Source: Phlegmacium glaucopus (Eukaryota; Basidiomycota; Agaricomycetes; Agaricales; Cortinariaceae). From it: 64,000 nucleotides of DNA. Location: contig MU130569.1 of assembly GCA_015039465.1 (NCBI GenBank), positions 51,968-115,967 of the forward strand, written 5' to 3'. Under the pieces are notes generated by a model. That model was not told where the DNA came from. It did no database searches and saw nothing but the letters and a program-made list of their open reading frames with translations. A program made the position numbers and the translations under genes. Positions 37,077-60,950 of this stretch are shown one piece after another; position 1 is the first letter of the stretch, and each line of letters starts with the position of its first letter.

Positions 37077-38860
37077 TTAATACCTTGCCATTTCTTCCAT
37101 GCCAAGCAACTTCTTTCTTATGTCCATGATTTGAACTTCTAGTTGCTCAGCTTCAGTCAACCTTCCCTGATTATAGTACATGTTTGTTATATATTCCATG
37201 CTTGTGAGGGTGAATGGATGTTCTGTGCCAAACAGCTTCTTGCTCATGTGCATGACTTGAGCCTGTAGCTTCTCTGCCTCATTCCACCTTCCCTGATTCC
37301 AGTATGTGTTTGCTAGACTTCCCATGCTTTTGAGGATAGATGGATGTTCTGCACTAAGCAACTTCCCCCCCATGCTCATAACTTGAAACTCTAATTGCTC
37401 TACCTCATTCCACCTGCCCTGATTACAGTATATGTTTGCTAGATTTCCCATGCTTCTGAGGGTATCTGGATGTTCTGCACCAAACAGCTGCTTCCTCATA
37501 TCTATGACTTGAACTTGTAGCTTCTCTGCCTCATTCAACCTTCCCTGATTCCAGAAGGTGTTTGCTAGATTTCCCATGCTTCTGATGGTCTCTGGATGTT
37601 CTATACCAAGTAGCTTCTTCCTCATGTCCATAACTTGGTCATGTAACTTCTCTGCCTCATTCCACCTTCCCTGATTGCGGTATGTGTTTGCTAGATTACT
37701 CATGCTTCTGAGGGTGTCTGGATGTTCTGCACCAAGTAGCATCTTCCTCATGTCCATGACTTGAACCTCTAATTCCTCTGCCTTGTTCCACCTTCCCAGA
37801 TTACGGTGTGTCTTTGCTAGATTTGCCATACTTGTGAGGGTGTCTGGATGTTGTGCACCAAGGAGCTGTATCCTCATGTCCATAACTTGAACCTGTAGTT
37901 CCTCTGCCTTATTCCACCTTCCCTGATTCCAGTATGTGTTTGCTATATTTCCCATGCTTCTGAGGGTATCTGGATGTTCTGCACCAAGCAGCTTCTTGCT
38001 CATCTCCATAACTTGAACCTGTAATGTTTCTGCCTCATTCCACCTTCCCTGATTAGAGTATGTGTTTCCTAGATTCCCCATGCTTCTGATGGTGTCTGGA
38101 TGTTCTGCACCAAGCAGCTTCTTTCTCATGTCCATGGCTTGAGCATGTAACTGCTCTGCCTCATCCCACCGTCCTTGATTGTGATATGTATTTGCTAGAC
38201 TTCCCATACTTCTGATGGTGTCTGGATGTTCTACACCAAGTAGCTTCTTGCTCATGTTCATAACTTGAATCTGTAGTGTTTCTGCCTCATTCCACCTTCC
38301 CTGATTCCAGTATGTGTTTCCTAGATTTCCCATGCTTCTAATAGTGTCTGGATGTTCTTCACCAAGCAGCTTCTTTCTCATGTCCATGACTTGGGCATGT
38401 AGCTTCTCTGCCTCATTCCACATTCCCTGATTGCGGTATGTGTTTGCTAGACTTCCCATGCTTCTGAGGGTGTCTGGATGTTTTGCACCATGCAGCTTCT
38501 TGCTCTTGTCCATGACTTGAACCTGTAGCAGCTCTGCCTCATCCCACCTTCCCTGATTGCGGTATGTGTTTGCTAGACTTCCCACACTTCTGAGGGTGTC
38601 TGGATGTTCTGCTCCAAACAGCTTCTTGCTCATGTCCATGACCTGAACCTGTAGCTGCTCTGCCTCATTCCATCTTCCTTGATTATAGTATGTCTTTGCT
38701 AGATTTCCCATGCTTGTGAGGGTGGATGGATGTTCTGCACCAAGTTCATTCTTCCTCATGGACATGACTTGAATATCCAGCTGCTCTGCATTGTTCCAGT
38801 CTCCATTCTCTCTCATGACTAGTGCAAAATTGGTCCATATATCATCATAGTACTGCTTGT
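37077..38860 (-). repeat. Tandem TPR-coding repeat, 126-bp unit, ~14 copies
   Basis: Head-to-tail 42-codon units are very similar at DNA level (ttccctgattrcggtatgtg, cttctgagggtgtctggatg and the gttctgcaccaa block recur almost unchanged). High DNA identity points to recent expansion or homogenisation among units. Confidence 0.9.
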
Positions 38861-40562
38861 TGAGTCCCATCTGGCTTCCATGTAATTCATTTGCCTTGAT
38901 ATGTGGAAGAATCAACCGTCGCAATGCATAATCCTGAGTTGCAAATCTCCCTGGAATTGCACAGGACAAAATTATTCTTCCTATCTGCCACATTCTTTGC
39001 TGCTCAGATTTCAACATTTGCTCCCGGCTCCAGCAGTGGACCAAAGGATGAATAGACAACATTTCAGATGATTGTCCTCCTTTCATCAAGGAGAATGACA
39101 GAAGCACACTGACACCTTGCCCAAACATGAACTCATCCCAGTGACCATCATTATCTAATGCAAGCAAGGTGTGATCTAATGAGTTAATTGCCAGGGGAAG
39201 CTTTTCAGCTACCTCACTATCAACAATGTATTCTCTGGACTCCTCAGCAGCAGATTGAAATATCTCTTTAGAAATATTACTATGATGATAGAATGCACAT
39301 ATCTGAAGAATTAGGATTGCAGCCCTGGCTGCTTGTGCATTTCCAGTGTCAGATTTCCCACCGGCTCTCTTTTCTATCTCTTTAAAAGATAAATCCCAGG
39401 TCCCATACACTGTTTGATCATAGTTTGATGCTCCTCTGTATGCAGCATCTGACATAAGAGTCTGACGATGTAAAGAGAACTGTCTCAGATATTTGTTGAG
39501 ATCACATTTCCCAGCTTCAATATAAGCACCAGCATGATCAACAGCCAGAGGAATATAGCCAAGTTCTTTGACAATCCCCTTAGCAGCTTGTTGATGCTCA
39601 GGCAATGGATCCAAACAATCCAAACAACTAGACCTGAGAAGGAGAGTTATAGCATCTGACTCCTCCATTTCAGTGATCTCAATTCTGTTCTCAAATGATA
39701 CAATCCTTCTCATGGATTGGTTTCTGCTGGTAATCAGAACATTACCTCTGTTACCTGGGGGAATGAAGTTGGCTATCACCTCTGGTGAAGGATCATCAGC
39801 ATTATCAAAGACAATCAACCATTCCTCTTGAATGAAAGATATCCACTGGAGGACAGACTGGACTGAGCCATCCACACCAGAAGCTTGTGCAGCAGGCATG
39901 GCAGATATGCCCTTGAAAGACATTCTAATGCTCTCATGAGAGGAGGAATCAACTCAGAATATATGTGAAAACCTAGAGCAAGAAATGAATCCAAAATGAT
40001 GTTGTCAATGGAAATGTGAAGACCTTACCTGTCAGATATTTCTTCTGTGAACTTGAGACAGATCTGGGTCTTTCCAATCCCTCCCATTCCCCAGAGGAGA
40101 CAAGAGCACCTTGACATCAGTTTATCACGATGAACAAAAATCTTCTGAAGTTTGTCAAGTACACCTTTCCGTCCAGTAAAGATTGGGCTGGAGTTTGGTT
40201 TTTGAGGTACAGAGATTGTCATTTGCCCTTCACCAGGATTGGTGGGGAGCATATTGACATTATAGTTCTAGGAGATAAAAATTATTGCTAAATCATATGC
40301 AGCATACGAGCAAGACTTACAATAGTGCCGCCAGTAATGAGTAAACTCTGGACGTTCGGAAAGAAACTTGAGCCAGAATGAGTCTGTTGATCATCAGGAA
40401 TAGCTGAGAAACATGGGTATCAACAACTCACTGAGGGATTTTGTTCTGATTCCGTAGATCCCAAGTTGGCTTGCGTTATGGCAGCAGGAGAAGAGAGCGA
40501 AATTTCTTCCGGATGGGCTACAGGGGTAACTACCAAAGCGGAGACTTGGGGTTCATGAGCAG

Positions 40563-41534: not shown

Positions 41535-42706
41535 AGGTGGTGCGCTCGCACGTAATCCCACCTGGTAGATCACTTGAAAATAGCGACAAAGCTCTATCTG
41601 GTGAGTTGTTCTGGCACATTTCTGATTTATGTGGTGCAGAGACATATGTGGACAAAGAGGGCAGCGCTATTTCCCGCGTCAAAGAAGTCTGGTTTGCAGG
41701 GTGCCACTCAGACATGTGCGTTTCCTCATTTTCCCGGCTCCACCCATATGTCTAACGTTTGTTGGCGCACAGCGGTAAGCGGAAGCGAGAAGAACGCAGA
41801 GTTGCCGCCGTCCCAGTTCTCTGGATGGGAAACGAAACTCTCTTTGCTGGTCTCAAGCTTAGGCATTCCGAAGTGGTTTGGAAGTGGGACAAGCTAGCAC
41901 AAACTCGCCCCAACGAATCGTTGGTATATGTATGGCACCTTTTTCAACTTTTGCCATTCAAGTGGCTTCTGTATGACAAACCGGGCAATACCTGGTAATG
42001 ATCTTTTGAGCACGTTGTTTTCGTTCTAACAGGATCCTCATAGGTGGCCGCATGTTTGGGAAGGTCGCGTAATCAAGCCTGGCCAGAAGATTCACGCCTC
42101 TGTCAGTTTCATAAAGGATTACAAATCTAAAGCGAAGTTTTCACCTGGGATGGTCGATGGAGATTGGAGTAGCGTCGTCAACAAGGGCCGGCAAGACGAT
42201 ATTAGCTGGATGAAGGGCATCGAGAACCTCTTAGAGTTGGACCTATTCGACTATTCGAATGTGAAAAAGATCATTGATGATGGCGACGTCGCCCGCTTGG
42301 AATTCGTCGCTTTGACTCGTAAGTTTGTCTCTCTGTGTTGTGATGGTCCACTGCTTCTGATCTAGGGTTATTTTCTTAAGGTGAAGGGAGACAAGCAATC
42401 GCCGATGAGATCAAGTTTTTTCGCAACATGCTCGAAGACTCAAATGAGGGGGAAAGTCGTTGCTTGTATGGCGATACTGTCGAAACTAGCTACTCACGGT
42501 AGGAGTATTTCATGTTCGTCTTTAAAGACGATGTTGATCGCATTATAGATGCTGTCAGGTCGGCAATTACGGAGACAAATTTGCTCCAACACACGAAGAG
42601 TAAGAGTTCCGAAGTCAGAATCAAGGGCCGGGAATTGATGAGGGAGCTTCTCAAATATGGCCAGCTCGTCATATCTCTACTCAACAACCCTCCTGACATA
42701 TTATGA
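41535..42706 (+). pseudogene. 5'-truncated DUF2235 paralogue
   Basis: It is close to 47760-48800 of the complete gene. CGAETYVDKEGSAISRVKE, then VWFAGCHSDM, an intron, LWMGNETLFAGLKLRHSEV, PGNTW, an intron, VIKPGQKIHASVSFIKDY, DISWMKGIENLLELDLFDY, and the SAITETNLLQHTKSKSSEV exon at ~42560. The whole N-terminal half, with the nucleophile motif GFSRG, is missing. The GGGSEKN stretch after HSD reads GKRKREERR instead. A ~50-bp insertion interrupts the later exon near 42500. Not functional as a hydrolase. Confidence 0.75.
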
Positions 42707-44265
42707 AGATGACGTCCGGGGTAACTTCAGCCGGAAGGGATAGCAGAAGTTCTTAGCTCCTTCAAGAACAATAGTGAAGCGGCGAGTGAACTCCCCTCTA
42801 GTTGTCGCCTCCAACAACGGCTCATTCATTTTATTCGACTTCACGCAGTCGCACAGATGCTGAGGGATTTAAACCCATTGTAGAACAGATTTTCGATGCT
42901 ATGTATGATCTTTACGTCAAATGGAAGGCCAGATCTTCTCTGTTAATTGATTTCTTAGAGGTACGGTTACTTGTTCGCCAATGTCTCTCACTCATAATTG
43001 CACTGGATTGCGGGTATAAACCTCCAATTTGTAGATGGCGATGCCCACAACGTATCAAACCCCACTCCAGCATGTCCTCAACCAAATGGCAAGGTTGTTA
43101 GGTGTATTCTCGGTCAATATTCACCAACAAGACTACTTACGTTCGGAAAGAATTATTTACGGTTCCTTACAGAGTGGGATGCAGAGGAGAGCAATGTTTG
43201 AGGGATTTGTATACGATTTTAGGTTGCTTTTGTTGTGGAGACTTCGAATCATCGTTTGGCACCTCCCAAGGAAGATCCTCCTTCGACGCAAACACTGTCC
43301 CTCAGCCACCCTTGGCGTACGGTCAAAATGGATTCGACGAATTTTGCATCAATGTCACGGATGAGATGCTTCAGTCTTATGACCTTCGTCATACGTTTGA
43401 AATTTCAATTGGGTATAATGAACATATGAACTGGGTTGCCGTTGCTTTACTTATCATCGGTTCGCACTGATCACCGGTTCGCACCGTCTCAGATTGACGC
43501 CTGCGAGGTTTTGACTCGGCTGATTGGATTGTTTTCGTTCATGGAGACAGAAGCGTCAATGACGGATGGCTATACGTCAAGGGTATTTCTCAAAAGGTAT
43601 TATCTCTATTGTTAAGAGTATTGAACGGAAAATATTAACCTTTCGAAGATCATAAACGAAGGTACCAGTAGAGCGTTTCCAACAGCCGAAAGACTCCTGT
43701 CACTTATTCAAGGTTATCACTGCTGGTCCTGTAGCGACTATGCTGGCCATGTATCTGTGAGCTTCTAAGTCTGGTTTTGCATGTTTGGGGTTGAATTTTG
43801 TAAGTTTTGCTGTTATAAATTCTGGATAACGCTTGGTCCAGTATTTCTCAGCCCAGCGGCCAGTTTCGGAGGGCACGCCGGTCAAACAGGACTCCACTCG
43901 ATGAGAACCGCTTCCTCTGCGGCTGGTTTGAGAAGCCAGGTCTTCACAGCAGCTTCTCGATGTAGCTACAATTCGTTGAATTCAAGTTTCAAATGCTACT
44001 ATCACAAGAACCATTGGCCATGGTATATTTTCACCCTCCTTGTTGATGAGCCTCCAAGCTCCAAGCTTCTTGAGGTCATCCATGTGCTTGGTCCACTGAC
44101 TCCACTCTAATATAGTGGACTTAATGAGGTTGAGCAAATCTGACAGCCCAACTATGTCCCCAGAGTTGATGAATCAGTCGCATAGGCTGATCAAGTGATT
44201 CAAGCCTTGCTCTTGAGCTTTTGATATCATCACAGACTCACAGTAGAGTAAGCTAGACACAGTGC
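42707..44265 (+). other. Unresolved coding-like stretch and spacer
   Basis: Plus-strand frames at 43035-43470 contain peptides (FGTSQGRSSFDANTVPQPP, FDEFCINVTDEMLQSYDLR) flanked by plausible splice sites, so a gene piece may lie here. No family is recognised. 43700-44265 shows nothing clear. Confidence 0.3.
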
Positions 44266-46099: not shown

Positions 46100-46595
46100 G
46101 GCCACCATCCTTGCTCTCACATTGTCCTCTCGCTCTCCCAGGTTCTTATTCCATGTCAAATTCCAATTGCTTCAGTGTGAAGCTGAATCAAAAAATTAGT
46201 GCACATGGTAGATATGACCTGCCTCGTTCATCGTCATGACACCTTGTATCCAAGTGGTCAATAAATTTATTCAGTTACCGTCGTACCGAGAATGAGATCT
46301 GAAATGATACACGCGGTGATAGACCAAAATATTAGCAACGACCACCTGTTCTTAATACACCATTGCACCACTCTGTTGCGTAAATCCTTTGGAAGTGTTG
46401 GAGCCAGGGGGAACGAGGGAACAGCCCAAATGGTTGTCAATGTTATCTGGCTGATCGTCGTTTTGTTTGCTGTGGGAAAGTTTACACGTGACTATGAAAA
46501 CGACTTCTGCAAACGGCTAGATCGACACGTTGAAAGAGCATGCCACACCTATATGGGAATCACCTAGTACTCTTCTCCCACCCACACTGATCCTT
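46100..46595 (+). other. Upstream region of the DUF2235 gene
   Basis: A 91-codon plus frame at 46292-46567 (HCTTLLRKSFG, VVNVIWLIVVLFAVG with one hydrophobic stretch) ends just before the DUF2235 start. It has no recognised homology and may be chance. The promoter of the next gene must lie here. Confidence 0.25.
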
Positions 46596-46599
46596 TGCG

Positions 46600-49500
46600 A
46601 TGGTCTCAAACCCAGAATCTCAGCTACCTCCTCCAACCTCGAAAGTTGCCAATCAGACGTGCGTACATATAGTCTACCTGTATCGAATTTGCACTAAACC
46701 GCTATAATCTAGCGATGACACAGACGTTAATTCCAAGTGTTGCGAATTTTGTAAAGCCAAGTTGAATGGTCGCAACCTTATCCTTTGCTTCGATGGCACT
46801 TCGAATCAGTTTGGAGAATATGTTGTTTCTTTTGTCTCTCTGCCTAACACGTTTTTCTTTGTCTAACTCCAAGTCCCGCAGAACACGAACGTTATCGAAC
46901 TCTACTCCCGTATCATCAAGGATGATTCGCAGCTCACCTACTACAATAGCGGCATCGGCACCTATGCAAGGCCTTCATGGCGCTCATACACGTATTGGAA
47001 ACAAGTTTTGGATAACAAGATCGATCTTGCCATCGCTTGGTATCAGTGGTCCTTATTCTACGTCATTTCTAGCGGCTTCACATTATATTCTTTAGGAACT
47101 TTGAGAAAGTCATTCTTGCGGGCTATCGCTGGCTGTCAGATAATTATATGGATGGCGACAAGATCTTCCTTTTTGGTAAGGGATTGCTGTTAACTTCTCG
47201 GCAAATTTGGCTCACCAGACCGGTTATCCAGGGTTCTCCCGTGGAGCTTACCAAGTTCGCGTACTGGCTGGGATGATCAACAAGGTGTGATTAATGTGGA
47301 ACTCCTGCAGCGTATTTTCTAATTCCCTGTTCACGAATAAAGGTTGGACTTATCTTACGAGGAAACGAAGAACAGATTCCATTGTATGTTCTTATGGTAT
47401 TTTGTGCTCTCCTGCATTTGATGAACTTTTTCTAGCGCATACGAGCTGTATGCTGATCTTTCGCCAAAACACCAGGAGAAGACCGACAAGTCATCAAGGA
47501 TGGCCCAACGCTTCAAGACGACCTTCTCGAGGTCGGAAGTAAGAGTACACTTTATCGGTGTCTGGTGTGTTCCAACTCATGGTCGTGGTCATGGGTCTCT
47601 AACCACATTTGAAACAGGGATACCGTCTCTTCCGTCGGCGTGATCAGAGGAAAGAGCCTTCCTGGGACGGACAACTTCAATCCAAACAGTATCTGTTATT
47701 TTCGGCATGCTCTTGCTCTAGATGAGCGTCGTGTCAAGTTTCTCCCCGAGTATGTATGTGGTGCAGAGACGTATGTGGACACAGAGTGCAGCGCTATTTC
47801 CCGCGTCAAAGAAGTCTGGTTTGCAGGGTGCCACTCAGACATGTGCGTATCCTCATTTTTCCGGCTCCACCCATGCCTATATGTCTAATGGGTGTCGACA
47901 CAGCGGCGGCGGGAGCGAGAAGAACGCAGAGTTGAACAATGCCGCCGTCCCAGTACTCTGGATGGGAAACGAAGCTCTCTTTGCTGGTCTCAAGCTCAGG
48001 CATTCCGAAGTGGTTTGGAATTGGGATAAGCTAGCAAACACTCGCCCCAAGGAATCGTTGATAAATGTATGGCACTTTTTTGAACTTTTGCCATTCAAGC
48101 GGCTTCGGTATGACCGACCGGGCAATACTTGGTAATGATCTTTTGAGCACGTTGTTTTCGTTCTAACAGGATCCTCACAGGCGGCCGCATGTTTGGAAAG
48201 GTCGCGTAATCAAGCCTGGCCAGAAGATTCATGCCTCTGTCAGTTTCATAGAGGATTACAAATCTAAAGCGAAGTTTTCACCTTGGATGGCCGAGGGAGA
48301 TTGGAGTAGCGTCGTCAACAAGGGCCGGCAAGACGATATTAGCTGGATGAAGGGCATCGAGTACCTCTTAGAGTTGGACCTATTCGACTATTCGAACGTG
48401 AAAAAGATCATTGATGATGTCGACCTCCCCCGCTTGGAATTTGTTGCTTTGACTCGTAAGTTTGTCTCTCGATGCTGTGATGGTCCGCTGCTTCTAATCT
48501 AAGGTCATTTTCTTAAGGTGAAGGGAGACAAGCAATCGCTGATGTTGATGATGAGTTCAAGTTCCTTCGCAACATGCTCGAAGACTCCAATGAGGGGAAA
48601 GTCGTTACCTGTATGGCGATACTGTCGAAACTAGCTACTTCCGGTGGGAGTGTCAGGTCGGCAATTACGGAGACAAATTTGCTCCAACACACGAAGAGTA
48701 AGAGTTCCGAAGTCAGAATCAGGGGCCGGGAATTGATGAGGGAGCTTCTCAAATATGGTCAGCTCATGACATCTCTAGTTAACATCCCTCCTGACATGTT
48801 TTAAAGATGTCATCCGGGGTAACTTCAGCCGGAAGGGAATAGCAGAAGTTCTTCGCTCCATCAAGAGCAATAGTGAAGCGGCGAATGAGGCGAGCAGGGT
48901 CCTTTATGAATATGTACGATACAGTAAGTCTGTCCAATCATTGGTCGGCTCGCTCCGCTGACCTTTGTCTGAGGTGATGGGCGAGAAGCGTTCCTGAACA
49001 AGATCGCCGAAGAATCTACCTTCGAGTGCCTCTTGAAGGATGAGATATGGCATCTGCTTCTTGTCTCGATCCTCTTTACCAACGGTGAATACCTGGAGTG
49101 TGTTGTATACTAAATGTACTGATCCTTTGCATAGACACCGGCCGGCGAATCACAGAGGGCAACCCCAAGCTCCCTGACATCAAAAATATCCAGTTATTGA
49201 CGCACCTGAAAGAATTTACCGGAGAGCTTCTCAATGATGAGCACAATGCCGACGGGCTTTGTCGGTTGGTCGAACGTGGTAAAGTTAATCTCTTGCTGCT
49301 GCTTATTTTGCCAACACATCTCAAGGTTTTTTCGAGCGAGCTTCGGCAAATGATGCAATTCAATTTCTCATCGACAAAATCGGAACACAGACATATGCAC
49401 TAGATGTCTTAGCAGCATTTCTCAAACATCGTGAGCTTACCGTCTGCCATTCTAGCGAGCTTACCAATGTTTTCACCAGCTGAAGTCCCAGGGAAGATCG

Positions 49501-50182
49501 TGGAGAGCTTACTAAACCGTTGGATCGATTCGCTCCAAACAATGATTCTTGGATCAAATGATGCCGAACAATGTAGTGGACTGCAGGCATTGTGTATATG
49601 TGCAGGATATAGTAAGCAAACGAGCTTCTATCCAAGTATACCTTCCCTGAATCCACAAAGGCGCGATGCGAAAGAGGATCGTGAAAGCGGAGCTCACCTC
49701 GCGACTTATCAAACTTTTTGAATCCGATAACGACGCAGTCCGATATTGCGCTTCGCTAGCACTGATTACACTTGACGGAGGTAGTCAACTAGGTTTTCAT
49801 TTTATATTGCCGCCGCTGATGCCTCATGCAGGTGATCCACAACTTGATATCCCTGCAAAAGAGATCATTGCCTGGTTGGTCAGTACGGTTGGTCGTATGT
49901 GGAGATATCGACGGACCGTGAAGTTTCTATCAGAAATAATAAAGAATGGTAAGGTAGCCAGCCGTGCGATGACATGGGGTTTTTATATGTTTGTTTCAGA
50001 CCGTCAAAAGAACTTGATGCCAGCTAGTATAAAAGACCTGAATATGTTGACACAATTGCCTGACAGGATGTCCAGTACCAAAATATTTGTCCGCCCAAAG
50101 AATGTATGTGATCTTGTTGTTTCATATGAACCTCATGCTGAACTTCATCTTACCACAGATTGTGCGTGATCTCGTCCTATGA
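46600..50182 (+). CDS. DUF2235 alpha/beta-hydrolase with helical-repeat C-terminus
   Basis: Start MVSNPESQLPPPTS at 46600. About 17 exons join cleanly at GT-AG: NLILCFDGTSNQFGEY, NTNVIELYSRIIKDD, YYNSGIGTYARPSW, then FGFSRGAYQVRVLAGM (Ser nucleophile elbow near 47230), ADLSPKHQEKTDKSS, VHFIGVWDTVSSVG, VKEVWFAGCHSDIGGGSEK (candidate catalytic Asp). PGNTWRPHVWKGRV and DISWMKGIEYLLELDLF follow, then an ARM/HEAT-like region to 50103 (LEDSNEGKVVTCMAILSKL, GNFSRKGIAEVLRSIKS, SDNDAVRYCASLALITLDG). DUF2235 is the fold of bacterial Tle1-type phospholipases; the fungal substrate is unknown. If only the first array intron is spliced, the protein ends IVRDLVL at TGA 50180-50182. The frame also runs in phase into the 50104-53896 array. 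Confidence 0.82.
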
Positions 50183-53100
50183 GCCTGTGATCAGATGCTG
50201 ACCCCACCTCACACTGTGTCCTTCCACAGGAAGTGTGTGATCTCATCCTATGAGCCTGCGACGGGATGCTGACCCCACCTTGCACTGTCCTGCCACAGAA
50301 AGTGTGTGATTTTGTCCTATGATCCTGTGATTGGATGTTGACCCCACTTTGTACTTTGTCCTTCCACAGACAGTGCGTGATCTTGTCCTATGAGCCTGCA
50401 ATTGGATGCTGACCCCACTTTGCACTTTGTCCTTCCACAGGAAGTGTGTGATCTTGTCCTATGAGCCTGCAATGGGATGCTGACCCCACCTTGCACTTTG
50501 TCCTTCCACAGTTTGTGGGTGATCTTGTCCTATGATCCTGTGATGGGATGCTGACCCCACCTTGCACTGTCCTTCCACAGATTGTGTGTGATTTTGTCCT
50601 ATGATCCTGTGATTGGATGCTGACCCCACTTTGCACTTTGTCCTTCCACAGACGGTATGTGATCTTGTCCTATGAGCCTGTGATCAGATGCTGACCCCAC
50701 CTTGCACTTTGTCCTTCCACAGATTGTGTGTGATCTTGTCCTATGATCCTGTGATGGGATGCTGACCCCACCTTGCACTGTCCTTCCACAGTTTGTGCGT
50801 GATTTTGTCCTATGATCCTGTGATTGGATGCTGACCCACTTTGCACTGTCCTTCCACAGGGAGTGTGTGATCTTGTCCTATGAGCCTGCAATGGGATGCT
50901 GACCCCACTTTGCACTTTGTCCTTCCACAGTTGGTGTGTGATCTTGTCCTATGATCCTGTGATTGGATGCTGACCCCACCTTGCACTTTGTCCTTCCACA
51001 GTTGGTGCATGATCTTGTTGTATGATCCTGCGATCAGATGCTGACCCCACCTCACACTTTGTCCTTCCACAGGATGTGTGTCATGTTGTCCTATGAGCAT
51101 GTGATGGGATGCTGACCCCACCTTACACTTTGTCCTTCCACAGTTTGTGTGTGATCTTGTCCTATGAGCCTGTGATGGGATGCTGACTCCACCTTGCACT
51201 TTGTCCTTCCACAGTGTGTGTGTGATCTTGTTGTATGATCCTGTGATGGGATGCTGACCCCACCTCACACTTTGTCCTTCAACAGTTGGTGTGTGATCTT
51301 GTCCTATGATCCTGTGATGGGATGCTGACCCCACCTTGCACTGTCCTTCCACAGGAAGTGTGTTATTTGTCCTATGATCCTGCAATTGGATGCTGACCCC
51401 ATCGCACTTTGTCCTTCCACAGGAAGTGTGTGATCTTGTCCTATGAGCCTGCAATGGGATGCTGACCCCACCTTGCACTTTGTCCTTCCACAGGAAGTGT
51501 GTCATGTCATCCTATGAGCCTGCAATGGGATGCTGACCCCACCTCGCACTTTGTCCTTCCACAGGAAGTGTGTGATCTCATCCTATGATCCTGTGATGGG
51601 ATGCTGACCCCACCTTGCACTTTGTCCTTCCACAGTTTGTGTGTGATCTCGGTGTATGAGCCTGGGATGGGATGCTGACCCCACTTCACACTTTGTCCTT
51701 CCACAGTCGGTGCATCATGTTGTCCTATGATCCTGTGATGGGATGCTGACCCCACTTTGCACTTTGTCCTTCCACAGTGTGTGCGTGATCTTGTCCTATG
51801 AGCCTGGGATGGGATGCTGACCCCACTTTGCACTTTGTCCTTCCACAGTGTGTGCGTGATCTTGTCCTATGAGCCTGGGATGGGATGCTGACCCCACCTC
51901 ACACTTTGTCCTTCCACAGGAAGTGTGTGATCTTGTCCTGTAATCCTGTGATGGGATGCTGACCCCACCTCGCACTTTGTCCTTCCACAGTTGGTGCATC
52001 ATGTCGTCCTATGATCCTGTGATTGGATGCTGACCCCATCGCACTTTGTCCTTCCACAGGATGTGCGTGATTTTGTCCTATGATCCTGTGATTGGATGCT
52101 GACCCCATCGCACTTTGTCCTTCCACAGTTTGTGCATGATCTTGTCCTATGATCCTGTGGTAGGATGCTGACCCCACCTTGCACTTTGTCCTTCCACAGC
52201 AAGTGTGTGATCTTGTCATATGATCCTGTGATGGGATGCTGACCCCACCTTGCACTTTGTCCTTCCACAGTTTGTGCATAATCTTGTCCTATGAGCCTGC
52301 AATGGGATGCTGACCCCACCTCGCACTTTGTCCTTCCACAGTTTGTGTGTGATCTCATTGTATGATCCTGTGATCGGATGTTGACCCCACCTCACACTTT
52401 GCCCTTCCACAGATTGTGCATGATCTTGTCCTATGATCCTGTGATTGGATGCTGACCCCACCTTGCACTTTGTCCTTCCACAGATTGTGCGTGATCTTGT
52501 CCTATGATCCTGTGATGGGATGCTGACTCCACTTCGCACTTTGTCCTTCCACAGGAAGTGTGTGATCTCATCCTATGATCCTGCAATCAGATGGTGACCC
52601 CACTTCACATTTTGTCCTTTCACAGTTTGTGGGTGATCTTGTCCTATGATCCTGCAATTGGATGCTGACCCCACTTCGCACTGTCCTTCCACAGGGAGTG
52701 CGTGATCTTGTCCTATGATCCTGTGATGGGATGCTGACCCCACTTCGCACTTTGTCCTTCCACAGTCGGTGCGTGATCTCATCCTATGATCCTGTGATGG
52801 GATGCTGACCCCACCTTGCACTTTGTCCTTCCACAGTTTGTGTGTGATCTTGTTGTATGATCCTGTGATGGGATGCTGACCCCACTTTGCACTGTCCTTC
52901 CACAGGGAGTGTGTGATCTCATCCTACAATCCTGCAATTGGATGCTGACCCCACTTTGCACTTTGTCCTTCCACAGTCGGTGTGTGATCTCATCCTGTGA
53001 GCCTGTGATGGGATGCTGACCCCACCTTGCACTTTGTCCTTCCACAGTTTGTGTGTGATCTTGTCATATGATCCTGTGATGGGATGCTGACCCCACTTTG

Positions 53101-53896
53101 CACTGTCCTTCCACAGGGAGTGCGTGATCTTGTCCTATGATCCTGCAATCGGATGCTGACCCCACTTTGCACTTTGTCCTTCCACAGTTTGTGTGTGATC
53201 TCATCTTCTGAGCCTGTGATGAGGATGCTGATCCCACTTTGCACTTTGTCCTTTCACAGGAAGTGTGTGATCTCATCCTATGATCCTGCGATTGGATGCT
53301 GATCCCACCTTGCACTTTGTCCTTCCACAGCAAGTGTGTCATCTCATTCTATGAGCCTGTGATGGAGATGTTGACCCCCTTGCAATTTGTCTTTTGATAG
53401 CTTTTGGTGTGTGATCCTGTTGTGTAAGCAAAGTAATGCATGCTGACCTGATGTTGTGTTTCATCTCCCACAGCCGGTATGTGACCTAGGATGACTACAA
53501 TCTAATACTAATCTTATGTTGACCCTTGACTTTTCTCAGGCAGTCTGTAACCTTCTTGTTTCATGGTGCACAGGGATGCTGATTCCACATTGGTCTCGAT
53601 CTTTTATCAGGAAGTGTGTGATCTTATTCAATTATTTGTCATCCATTCTCATCATTTTTTTCTTTGATAGGAAGTCTGTAATTTCATTTTCTGAGTCTTA
53701 TTTTGGACCCTGACACTGCTGGAATATTTTTCATTCCATAGCAAGTATGTATTGCTGTTACATCTGCTTTTCATATCATTCTGACTCTATGATGGTTTCT
53801 ATTCACCTCACAGAAGGTAGATGATTCTGTTCCCCATAAATAGTAGATCTCCACATGACCTTGAGTATAGTTTTTTAGAAATTTTCTCATTTTCAG
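50104..53896 (+). repeat. Array of 54 consecutive intron-like units separated by single codons (putative micro-exon array)
   Basis: Each unit of ~71 bp (range 58-83) starts GTGTGT, GTGCGT, GTATGT or a close variant. It has a CTGAC branch-site-like core ~28 nt before the end, then a pyrimidine-rich ccttcc, and ends CACAG/CATAG/TCAG. Exactly three bases then precede the next GT; one gap (53401-53406) has six. GT and AG are present in every unit. The first GT (50104) follows AAG AAT of the DUF2235 frame in phase 0. The 46 regular triplets use only 12 codons (TTT 11, GAA 9, ATT 5, TTG 4, GGA 4, TGT 3, TCG 3, GAT 2, CAA 2, AAA, ACA, ACG); none is a stop. If a unit is not removed, nearly all read V-C/R-D-L-V/I-L-stop. 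Splicing is inferred, not shown. Confidence 0.85.
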
Positions 53897-54165
53897 ATGA
53901 GTTGTTGATCTCTTCCACACTGCCACTGCCATGTTTTGTAGGTAATCTTGGCCTTTTAATTAAATGGTGATCTCATGCTGATTCCCCTCTTCCCATAGTT
54001 TGTCTGTTGCACTCCCCCATATGCTCTTTATATATCTCATGTTGAAGTCCCATCATTTTGACCTTTTGACTGTAAGTGTGATCTTGTTGGCTGAACTTTC
54101 ATTGAAGATATTCAAATAAGCATGTATGCATAGAGTTTCATGTATGGATTTTTTTTGAGGTGTAG
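53897..54165 (+). other. Decayed end of the intron-like array
   Basis: After the last clean AG (53896) the frame reads ATG AGT TGT TGA, a possible final exon. Further GT..AG-like pieces follow: 53901-53941, 53941-53999, then TTT, then GTCTGT from 54003. The three-base spacing is lost here, so the array ends or decays here. Confidence 0.5.
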
Positions 54166-54440
54166 ATACCCTCAAACTGTTGTTGTACATAGCAGAAGTC
54201 TGGGTTCAAGCCTCTAGTAGTCTACCCCATTTCTATTTGATTGATTGTGTTAGGAAACATGTATGAGTGCCTACTATAATTTTTTCTTAGGCCAGTTGAG
54301 TACAATTTGGCCATGGTGTAGTATCTGGAACTCCAAATTCATTGTAATACCCTGCAAGAGGTGGTCTCCTGGTGTTGTATTAGTCCCATGTTCAGAAGTA
54401 AAGCAATAAAATTTTGTGCTAGTATCATAGTAGTATGAGA
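54165..54440 (+). repeat. SINE-like element with Pol III B box and shared tail
   Basis: A B-box-like gggttcaagcc (54202-54212) is followed by the tail block gcaagaggtggtctcctggt and caataaaattttgtgctagt, matching 41281-41350. The A box is not clear. The (ttttat)n run after it may be the 3' end. Confidence 0.5.
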
Positions 54441-55880
54441 TTTTATTTTATTTTATTTTGAATCTTTGTTTCTTGTCCTTTGTGGTGAGCCATATGGTAG
54501 ACATATACTGTAAATGTAACTACTGGGGTACACTACTTGGCCAGGATGGCTGTGAACTAATCAACTGCTATGAGAAATGTGTAGCATGACTTGAAGTGGG
54601 GTATCTGCATGAAATAATGATTGTAACAATAAGACAATGTGCTGGTGTAATATAGACTATGTTGTTATGGTAATGGTTGACTATTGTTGTGCATCTGTGA
54701 TAATTGCTTCCTGGATAGTGCCAAATCACCTGCTGCGACCTATAAACTTGAATAAATGTGGGAAAAGTTCTGGGATGGATAGGAGTTTGTTGATGTTTCT
54801 TGCATCTCTGCCTGCTTCTTGGAATAATCTATTTCTTGTGTGGTTGTGGGCTGGACATTGTATTAGGAAATGCATCACTGTGTTGTTGTGTCTGTACATC
54901 AGGACAAAGCAGTTTAGCCCTGGAGCTTCAGGACCCTCTAGGTGCCTTGGGATGCCCTAAGGCACTCAGGGCATCAAAGCACTCAGAGCATCTTGTATTG
55001 CTCTCAGGGCAAGGTTCTTTCCGCCAAATTTTCCCACAGAGCTCTAGAGCATCCCAGGGTGTCTTAGGCCCTAAAGATGGCAATGATATTATTATTAAAT
55101 AGACAATTTATTGCTTTTAATGCTTTTACAGACCCTGGAGGTGTCCCAAGGCATCTCAAAGCATCCCAAAACATCCCAAAGCATCCCAAAGCTATCAAGA
55201 ATACTCTGGTGGTCTTTAGGCCATCTCAGAACAGTGGTTGAGAACAGTCATAAAAAGAATATATTTAGGGTATTGGGTAGTAGGCTAGATATGATATGAG
55301 TTATATGAAGAGATGGGGTGTACTAGTAAATAAGGTAAGAAGTATAGATGATGAGGGCAATGAGAATTCAGGTCAATAAAATAGAAGAATCAAAAGATAC
55401 TAATGCCTTCATCTGCAATATGGTCATGATTGGCCTCCTTGACATCTTCAATATCAACACTGTTGTCTTGTTCTATATCCATAAGGCTTTCAAGATTGCT
55501 GCTTTCACTAGAACAAAGTTTTGTTAAAGAAGATAAAAGAAAACAACATAAATCATACGAAATTATCTTGAAGAGTGCTTGAGGATATGCATCAGTCCAT
55601 TTCTTTGACTTTGCAATTAAGCCTTTCCAAGTAGAATGATGGTAACCACAACTATTATAAAAATCATTAGACAGAAGTAATGATGTGACTTATAAGTCAT
55701 AAATACCGTGAGCAAGCTTGACACTCCTTAAAAAGTGCCTGGGTTTGTACTCCATTCCTATATTCTCCAATACTGTGCTCGATCTGATAAAAAGATGATA
55801 TCAATGTAGCATATAGCAAGAATAAATAAAACTGGAAACCGATGCATCAGGAAAAATGATTTTGGCCCTAGGTAGCCTTG
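54441..55880. other. TE-rich, CpG-poor intergenic DNA
   Basis: No gene supported. A short tandem repeat of ~10-11 bp (aaagcatccc) lies at 55150-55195, and gcactcagggcatc-type pieces at 54960-55010. Confidence 0.4.
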
Positions 55881-55911
55881 GGTAATTTGTTAGTATCACA
55901 TCACTACTCAG

Positions 55912-55970
55912 GACATCCCAGGACACCCCAGGACACCACCCCAGGACACCTCAGGACATCCTAGAGCAGC
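55912..55970. repeat. aggaca(cc)cc heptamer-like repeat
   Basis: Six or more copies of caggacaccc/caggacatcc occur in tandem. Related motifs reappear at 56700-56740 and 55140-55190. Confidence 0.6.
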
Positions 55971-56558
55971 ACAGGTAAAATTTTGAGTGTCACCCATTTT
56001 CTCAGGACACCTTTAGTGTATCCTGGTGCATTGACCATCTGGACCAAATCACATCAGGAGGCCCTGGGAGTCCCTTAGAATTTATGAATTTTGCTAGAAA
56101 ATCTTTAACCGCTGCGTCCAAAAAAGTATTTTGCAGTTTTCTCAATAAGGAGAGCTGCTATTAATATAATTTAAACATATTCAGGGTCCTAAAACCATTC
56201 TCTACCATCTTTAAAAAATTTCCTTTTTTGGAATTTATGTAATCTACCCTGACCCAGCACCATATGCTTGAAATCATGCTTATCTGTGATCATGTGACCA
56301 ATGGTCTGTGCACCATCCAAAAGATATATAAACCACCCACAATTTTGTTTTCTTATTCCCTACTTCCCCAGTATTATACTAATATATTTATGTATCACTA
56401 TTTTATTATTATTTTATTACTAGTACTATATATCATGTTTAGAATAATTGAATATAATTTTATTGTTATTATTATTATTCTGTTGTGTGAGACCACTCAA
56501 ATATCTGGTTTATATATGTTTTCTAGCATCAGATCCAAAGGGACTAAGGCTGCCTCAG

Positions 56559-56625
56559 GATGCTCTCAGGTTGCCTCAGGATGCTCTCAGGTTGCCTCAG
56601 GATGCTCTCAGGTTGCCTCAGGTTG
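56559..56625. repeat. 21-bp tandem repeat (tcaggatgctctcaggttgcc)
   Basis: Three perfect copies and one partial copy run head to tail. In frame the unit would give a 7-residue peptide ASGCSQV, but no gene context supports translation. Confidence 0.8.
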
Positions 56626-56833
56626 CCCCAGGACAGTCTAAGACTTTTCATACATAGGTAACTTGCACCCCAGGGCGACCTCTTGACCTGAGCGCCCTGA
56701 GCTGCCTGGGGCACCCCAGGACATTTCAGGATGGCCTAGGGCACAAGTCATTTTTCCTGATGTGATAGGACCCAGGAGACATCTAGGGATGTAAACGCAC
56801 CATTTTCACAGTTTCACAACCTTCGCAGTATAC

Positions 56834-57030
56834 TTGCAGATGTTCACAGATACTTGTGGATGCTCACATATCGTTGCAGATACTTGCAGATCATCACAGG
56901 TCATTGCAGATCATTGCAGATCATCACAGATCATCACAGATTATTGCAGATTATTGCAGATCATTGCACATACTCGCAGATTATCACAGAATACTCACAG
57001 ATCCATTGCAGATACTTGCAGTCATCACCA
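56834..57030. repeat. ~10-bp tandem repeat (ttgcagatca / atcacagatc)
   Basis: About 18 degenerate copies of a decamer whose core alternates between ttgcagat and tcacagat. It is open in more than one plus-strand frame because the unit is not a multiple of three and lacks stops; I do not call a protein. Confidence 0.75.
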
Positions 57031-60298: not shown

Positions 60299-60440
60299 AG
60301 GCCCAAGGTTCTCTGTTCAGCGGATATTCAGTGGATTGTACTGGACTGCAGAGGATGTCCATTTAGCTCATTTCCAGTGAGTATTAAAGAGTCCAGGGAT
60401 GTCCGGGGAGCTACCAAGCTTCCAATATTAGGTTCCCGGT

Positions 60441-60950
60441 ATCGTGCACCAATACTGATTGGTAGCATGAGAACAAAGCTTAAAAGTTGCCATCATGAAA
60501 ATAAGCGGACTTTGAATTCACTTACCTATTTTGGAAGCAACCCTGAATCGTGTTCCTGGTCAATAAATTCATTTGTTCAACATTATCATCCTCATCGCTC
60601 ATTGTATTCTCAATGTCTCACACTATGCTATCCATCATTTACACCATCAACATGCTCCTAAACATCTACCATCCATTTGTTCCTTAGCTAGCAATATCGC
60701 GCACCAATACTGATTGGTAGTGTGAGAACAAAGCTTAAAATTTGCCATCATGAAAATAAGCGGACTTTGAATTCACTTACCTATTTTGGAAGCAGCCCTG
60801 AATTGTGTTCCTGGTCAACAAAATCATTTGTTCAGCGTTATCATCCTCATCACTCATCATATCCTCAATGTCTTCCACTATGCTATCCATCATTTACACC
60901 ATTGACATGCTCCTTAACATCTACCATCTGTTTGTCCCTTGGCTAGTGAT
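60441..60950. repeat. 255-bp direct tandem duplication
   Basis: Copies 60441-60695 and 60696-60950 align end to end with roughly 90 percent identity by eye, from atcg(t/c)gcaccaatactgatt to atctaccatc.gtttgt. No frame is kept through both copies. Confidence 0.85.

Follow-up and report, generated by a model that had tools for sequence, protein, structure and literature searches.

A tandem array of 54 candidate introns separated by one-codon exons behind a DUF2235 gene of Phlegmacium glaucopus

Can the end of a protein be joined together from a long run of exons that hold one codon each? The question is raised by a stretch of 64,000 nucleotides (hereafter, the window) in contig C202 of the 60.5-Mb genome of Phlegmacium (Cortinarius) glaucopus, a mushroom of the Cortinariaceae treated among the ectomycorrhizal Agaricales in a study of mycorrhizal fungi (PMC7550596). 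Behind a gene for a DUF2235/ARM-like protein, 54 consecutive GT...AG introns of 55-80 nt occupy positions 50104-53896 (the last of them 53817-53896). The GT and the AG are kept in 54/54, as an earlier note on this DNA had stated. The 53 inner exons are 52 single triplets and one exon of 6 nt, and all their lengths are multiples of three. The one-codon exons that the note had seen throughout the array are thus found in 52 of the 53 cases, the 6-nt exon at 53401-53406 having been overlooked. The array opens in phase 0 behind an open frame of 849 codons with a DUF2235 domain (PF09994), also in agreement with the note. If all units were spliced, the predicted C-terminal tail would be IEKTEFITIFGLLDFCLEEEEFSCCELDFQFFIIEFGSFGSFGFEQLLPAEEQKMSC, which spreads 57 residues across almost 4,000 letters of DNA; this count includes the 6-nt exon and the terminal exon and replaces the ~55 residues given before.

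From the sequence evidence, we consider it reasonably probable that the array encodes a real spliced tail of single-codon exons, in which the repeat unit is the intron, homogenised while the codon diversifies. The earlier reading of introns around one-codon exons gains support from the splice-site scores, the lack of stop codons, the variation focused on codons, the diverged units and the deposited gene models. The unit was searched for in the whole genome and matched at three paralogous loci only, in contigs C202, C60 and C106 (hereafter used as names of the three arrays; the match counts are lower bounds), and a search with the 3' flank led to the same three loci. As evidence for the one-codon-exon reading, we give most weight to the paralogs and to the focusing of variation on the codons.

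The splice signals of the array resemble those of the gene in front of it. The sites were scored with position weight matrices (PWMs), with the 51 distinct gene-body introns of the three copies for comparison. The mean donor scores were 5.23 in C202, 5.20 in C60 and 4.96 in C106, compared to 5.45 for the gene-body introns and 2.39 for random GT; the mean acceptor scores were 6.08, 6.14 and 6.26, respectively, compared to 7.12 and 0.14. A few weak single sites apart, the donor and acceptor motifs of the array introns are like those of the host-gene introns (U2-type), the lowest donor scores being 0.24 in C106 and 0.6 in C60. The donors were first described as GT[G/A], which fits most of them, although 2/54 introns start with GTC. 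A CTGAC-like branch core was likewise ascribed to each unit. Its A sits 28 nt before the intron end in 35 introns, and a YTRAY motif is in range in 50/54 introns of C202 (absent in four), 42/44 of C60 and 20/22 of C106. No extra AG lies between YTRAY and the acceptor in the 50 motif-bearing introns of C202, and C60 and C106 have one exception each. The commonest intron length is 68 nt (35/54).

Tandem Repeats Finder (TRF) reported a 71-bp array with 86% matches, so the core units are not independent of each other. At the sequence level, the diverged 3' end is a more independent test than the core. Its seven introns have a mean identity of 61% to the core outside the splice dinucleotides, and all seven keep GT and AG in C202. 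A chain of 7 such introns was found in 53407-53905, and 3000 dinucleotide shuffles reached at most 5. When the region started four bases later, the chain was again 7 and a chain of 6 was reached in 3/3000 shuffles. With a branch motif required, the chain was 6 against at most 4 in 3000 shuffles, on a path with two unpredicted sites because intron 51 lacks a YTRAY motif. Elsewhere, chance GT/AG chains also reached up to 6, in a scan that covered what remains of the window together with 11 further loci (5.5-9.5 kb each), drawn from the 15 stretches L037-L051.

The three arrays, which are paralogs in one genome, have 54 (C202), 44 (C60, the last without AG) and 22 (C106) introns, and each is placed behind a copy of the same gene with an open frame (849, 848 and 851 codons, respectively). 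The ratio of non-synonymous to synonymous substitution rates (dN/dS, NG86) in the N-terminal hydrolase segment was ~0.43 for C202-C60, ~0.22 for C202-C106 and ~0.17 for C60-C106; in the rest of the gene it was ~0.57, ~0.55 and ~0.58, respectively. The last seven units match one to one across the copies. Among the 68-nt intron bodies, to which this comparison applies, the nearest neighbour was unique within the own locus for 33/36 in C60, 21/35 in C202 and 7/12 in C106. These intron bodies are thus mostly nearest to introns of the same locus, a pattern of concerted evolution. Allelic copies are not favoured as an explanation, given that the homology is limited to 46502-54323 for C60 and 46502-54443 for C106. 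BLASTN alignments over 120 bases were considered for 9-19 kb around each copy, and among the matches listed no further long match of these flanks to the window was present, a truncated gene copy excepted. A spread of the unit in the manner of introner-like elements is rejected on the basis of the whole-genome search, with its three paralogous loci only.

Where the variation sits was determined for the 68-nt core units, which represent 30/54, 34/44 and 11/22 introns of C202, C60 and C106, respectively. The non-consensus letters in the triplets (6-nt and terminal exons not counted, here and in all triplet counts) numbered 56/90 in C202, 37/102 in C60 and 16/33 in C106. The other 66 intron columns, without +3 and +4, had 122/1980, 9/2244 and 44/726, and positions +3/+4 had 14/60, 13/68 and 8/22. 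In C60, 30/33 of introns 4-36 are letter-identical outside +3/+4, yet they have ten triplet types and 16 combinations of triplet and +3/+4. Such freely differing triplets on recently copied introns would be hard to explain by drift, because an unconstrained mid-intron should change as fast as the codon. The triplet differences comprise 1 transition and 36 transversions in C60, 6 and 50 in C202, and 3 and 13 in C106; the intron bodies have 81 and 41 in C202 and 33 and 11 in C106, and the 3 and 6 in C60 are too few changes to compare. Triplets of the type [CG][AT][AT], a set that contains no stop codon, account for 30/33 of the C60 core (positions 5561-8200 of L037, minus strand) versus 16/52 in C202. 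As a separate observation, CpG/TpG/CpA pairs hold 72/136 (C202) and 20/52 (C106) of the non-consensus intron letters. This bias in intron variation, at 50159-53400 and in the C106 array, looks as if the repeats had been methylated and deaminated.

The triplets also behave in a codon-like way. None of the 114 triplets of the three arrays is a stop codon, in line with the first description, and ~9.8 would be expected with the three positions independent. Among pairs of triplet types one step apart, those present were 36/103 of the non-synonymous, 6/44 of the synonymous and 0/9 of those involving a stop. The difference between non-synonymous and synonymous pairs has a Fisher p of 0.009 with the three arrays pooled, a value whose significance, like that of the stop-codon count, is overstated since the units are related by descent. 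The codon-related pattern of variation argues against the class of non-coding minisatellites, with the qualification that the units are non-independent. Codon usage is uniform, with E encoded by GAA in 25/25, Q by CAA in 20/20 and F by TTT in 15/15. C never occurs at donor position -1 (0/114), and a splicing preference at this position could contribute to the uniform E, Q and F codons.

The deposited gene models of the paralogs, BYT27DRAFT_7180260 (C60) and BYT27DRAFT_7185189 (C106), terminate within the arrays. The window gene's own deposited model was not among the best 120 of 3531 protein matches, nor among 2 from a second search. The tails of the two models were reconstructed as GT-AG paths; with no more than two introns, each at least 40 nt long, they could be reproduced in three ways for C60 and in two for C106. 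Each path needs a 3-nt exon at array sites. The C106 paths use predicted donors and acceptors: array donor 1 is joined to a CAA exon across a long intron, which is followed either by one exact array intron or by an intron of 210 nt that spans three units. In C60, where the last acceptor is lost, the model takes an upstream AG instead.

Several points weigh against a fully spliced, codon-selected array, in addition to the shared descent of its units. Most units are left out of both deposited models. In the C60 model intron 1 is read through, and the exit is at an inner GT that lies 2 nt beyond predicted donor 2. The branch motif is absent from 4/54, 2/44 and 2/22 introns of C202, C60 and C106, respectively, the last intron of C60 ends in CAA and not CAG (AG lost), and weak donors are found in C106 intron 18 (GTTGTA) and C60 intron 32 (GTGCCG). 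In C60 no stop codon would be expected anyway, so this array adds no power to the stop-codon count, and the synonymous test is non-significant for each array taken singly (p 0.15, 0.09 and 0.57). The non-coding position +4 is also highly variable in C60 (23 C, 5 T, 4 G and 2 A; n=34), and selection on codons alone is therefore an insufficient explanation. The variation at +4 may have arisen by hitch-hiking with the adjacent codon or by directed mutation across -3 to +4.

Splicing could be real but consist mostly of skipping, from a donor near the start to a distant acceptor, so that the array would be a bank of alternative acceptors and codons for a combinatorial or stochastic tail. All inner exons being multiples of three, the frame would be kept by any subset of units. 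The deposited models fit this in part, with the C106 model requiring a long intron from array donor 1 and the C60 model retaining one 3-nt exon. Runs of 3-nt exons are badly handled by gene predictors and short-read aligners, and the models may be artefacts of these. Also in favour of skipping, annotation in the study that includes P. glaucopus drew on transcriptomes when available (PMC7550596). The introns of the gene body are all short (47-62 nt), and the retention of signals in almost all units suggests at least occasional use of each. In view of this we regard predominant skipping as unlikely, though worth keeping in mind.

The array might instead be a non-coding minisatellite, 3' untranslated or intergenic, with translation stopping just past 50103 in the first units and GT and AG amplified by accident. 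In C202 and C60 unit 1 can indeed be read on until a stop in unit 2 is met after 21 codons, and, given the shared descent of tandem units, GT and AG within the core are poor evidence. However, in C106 the read-on frame closes after 12 codons, GT/AG and the spacing in multiples of three are kept in the diverged 3' units, and the triplets are far more variable than the intron columns, stop-free and rarely synonymous, which makes this explanation improbable. The same variability could come from directed mutation rather than selection, if some seven bases around the donor (-3 to +4) were rewritten as a patch with every copying of a unit. The variation at -3 to -1 and +3/+4 around a fixed GT would fit, as would the prevalence of [CG][AT][AT] in the C60 core and the nearly exclusive transversions in the triplets, unlike the intron bodies of C202 and C106. 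Linkage to a selected codon could likewise keep +3/+4, the free sites closest to it, variable, and the missing stops and synonymous codons point to selection; we hold patch rewriting to be very doubtful. We know of no enzyme or template for it (none was searched for).

If the spliced tail is real, the array would be the 3' coding part of the DUF2235-ARM gene, each 71-bp unit being a short spliceosomal intron plus one codon. Intron definition, in which short introns are recognised by the nearest donor and acceptor, would remove the introns and join consecutive codons into the C-terminal tail. Stepwise removal of short introns would lengthen the upstream exon each time, and may in this way keep factors from crowding on a 3-nt exon. 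Unequal crossing-over or gene conversion would expand, contract and homogenise the tandem repeat, to the 54, 44 and 22 introns of the three copies, and homogenisation would in turn keep the units competent for recombination. Selection would keep the splice sites and the frame and favour codon change, leaving introns alike and residues diverging. Antisense coding was also considered, as a 231-aa open reading frame (ORF) lies inside the array on the minus strand (50810-51505); the 71-bp period shifts the frame at each unit, and this ORF is probably due to chance.

The coordinates of the gene, the array and the duplicated block are listed in Table 1. The body splice sites were set by hand and verified by translation, and the 18 gene-body introns are ordinary. 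PF09994 (DUF2235, Tle1-like hydrolase) matches residues 40-307 with an E value of 9.4e-84 and is the sole domain above the cut-off in the 849-aa protein, in which NACHT, NB-ARC, WD, TPR and ANK domains were not found. The remainder has a helical-repeat (ARM/HEAT-like) look with a weak Pfam match (HEAT_EZ, below cut-off). One body intron of the C60 and C106 genes is missing in the window gene at ~48640-48670 with the frame kept; by eye, this intron is also present near 42500 in a truncated DUF2235-ARM gene copy without array (41625-42789), which is broken off at 42789.

Table 1 Features of the DUF2235-ARM gene, its intron array and the duplicated block, in window positions unless stated otherwise
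Feature	Position	Strand	Remarks
Host gene body	46600..50103	+	19 exons, 849 codons, open spliced frame
Host gene exons 1-7	46600-46658, 46713-46821, 46882-47039, 47096-47175, 47232-47284, 47343-47383, 47436-47564	+	
Host gene exons 8-13	47618-47842, 47904-48131, 48181-48455, 48518-48757, 48807-48923, 48974-49084	+	
Host gene exons 14-19	49135-49278, 49326-49430, 49480-49611, 49661-49780, 49832-49948, 50000-50103	+	
Array intron 1, diverged first unit	50104..50158	+	55 nt; donor directly after codon AAT, phase 0
Core array, triplets and introns 2-47	50159..53400	+	introns 65-69 nt, 71-bp period, homogenised units
Six-nucleotide exon CTTTTG, two codons	53401..53406	+	likewise CTTTTG in C60; TGTTTG in C106
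Diverged 3' units, introns 48-54	53407..53896	+	triplets CCG, GCA, GAA, GAA, CAA, AAG; matched unit by unit in C60 and C106
Predicted terminal exon ATG AGT TGT TGA (Met-Ser-Cys-stop), ATGAGTTGTTGA	53897..53908	+	counterpart in C106 AGG AGT TGT TGA
Duplicated block, gene, array and ~0.5 kb	46502..54443	+	from BLASTN, unit search and 3' flank search
Duplicated block, C60 copy	about 37.7-44.8 kb of C60	-	match ends at window 54323
Duplicated block, C106 copy	about 359.5-365.2 kb of C106	-	match ends at window 54443

Other repeats are present in the same window. A 948-aa ORF near the array gene (37077-39923, minus strand) has a C-terminal part with 13 TPR_10 stretches, encoded by a 126-bp DNA repeat with 82% matches, and is preceded by a part that we take to resemble the end of an NB-ARC domain. 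This ORF looks like a TPR receptor of the high internal conservation (HIC) type. Downstream of the array, several simple repeats of 10, 20 and 30 bp lie at 55144-57013, and two copies of a 255-bp unit with 90% matches at 60440-60946.

No array of one-codon exons was described in the literature searched (open-licence papers), and the array was compared to the systems that share part of its features. Passages on the HIC repeats (WD, TPR and ANK) of fungal NOD-like receptor (NLR) and het genes (het-d/het-e) describe tandem units homogenised even at neutral positions, differing unit numbers and change at few codons (PMC1805685, PMC4986451), and homogenised repeats with change at few codons are found in the three arrays at the DNA level. 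In the HIC genes the repeated unit is protein (PMC1805685, PMC4986451). In the array it is an intron, which would be absent from the protein, and the whole exon consists of the variable codon. The micro-exon genes (MEGs) of Schistosoma mansoni likewise have runs of very short exons with lengths mostly in multiples of three. They are portrayed in parts of the source as genes for secreted proteins, with 10-20 exons per gene of 6-81 bp (3-81 in the abstract) and introns of 100 to almost 5000 bp (PMC10526429). Many very short exons, mostly multiples of three, are found in the array at the sequence level; its 53 inner exons have only 3-6 nt, and its introns of 55-80 nt fall outside the 100-5000 bp of the MEGs, as far as that source text describes them (PMC10526429).

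The Fusarium CYP621A gene has a single-nucleotide exon, evidence that exons of fewer than three bases can be included by a spliceosome in fungi (PMC12940212). The read-supported exon of one nucleotide suggests that 3-nt exons are allowed in principle. Unlike the units of the array, it is presented in the relevant passages as isolated and motif-conserved, with no array or variability (PMC12940212). Fungal introner-like elements are near-identical spliceosomal introns that were recently multiplied; in the account given in parts of the source they have hundreds of copies in unrelated genes, in contrast to the three paralogous loci and tandem amplification of the array unit (PMC4457414). Stwintrons, or spliceosomal twin introns, are directly adjoining introns in fungi, the internal one lying within a splice signal of the external one (PMC8469720, PMC9024468). 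They differ in that the array introns of the window never split the splice signal of another; 3 or 6 nt lie between them, and each has its own GT and AG.

By analogy with the HIC repeats, the tail may have a role in recognition. A literature search on DUF2235 in fungal immunity found nothing that links the fungal family to it. Rather speculatively, the array could be a diversification device built from splicing, with homogenised introns as spacers for recombination, codons that are individually rewritten or selected within a short patch at the donor, and further variety from units that are included or not, which would provide the DUF2235 hydrolase with a recognition tail specific to the gene copy or perhaps to the transcript.

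If the array is spliced as predicted, a protein segment would be assembled codon by codon from dozens of exons, a type of gene architecture that would be new. Its exons would be close to the minimum size, and the run would far exceed the isolated micro-exons of the cited papers. Such a gene would be a test case for how the spliceosome deals with a donor three bases from an acceptor, and a tandem intron could then be a unit of concerted evolution that carries diversifying codons. Such tails would also be missed by gene annotation, as in the models of the two paralogs, which omit most of their arrays.

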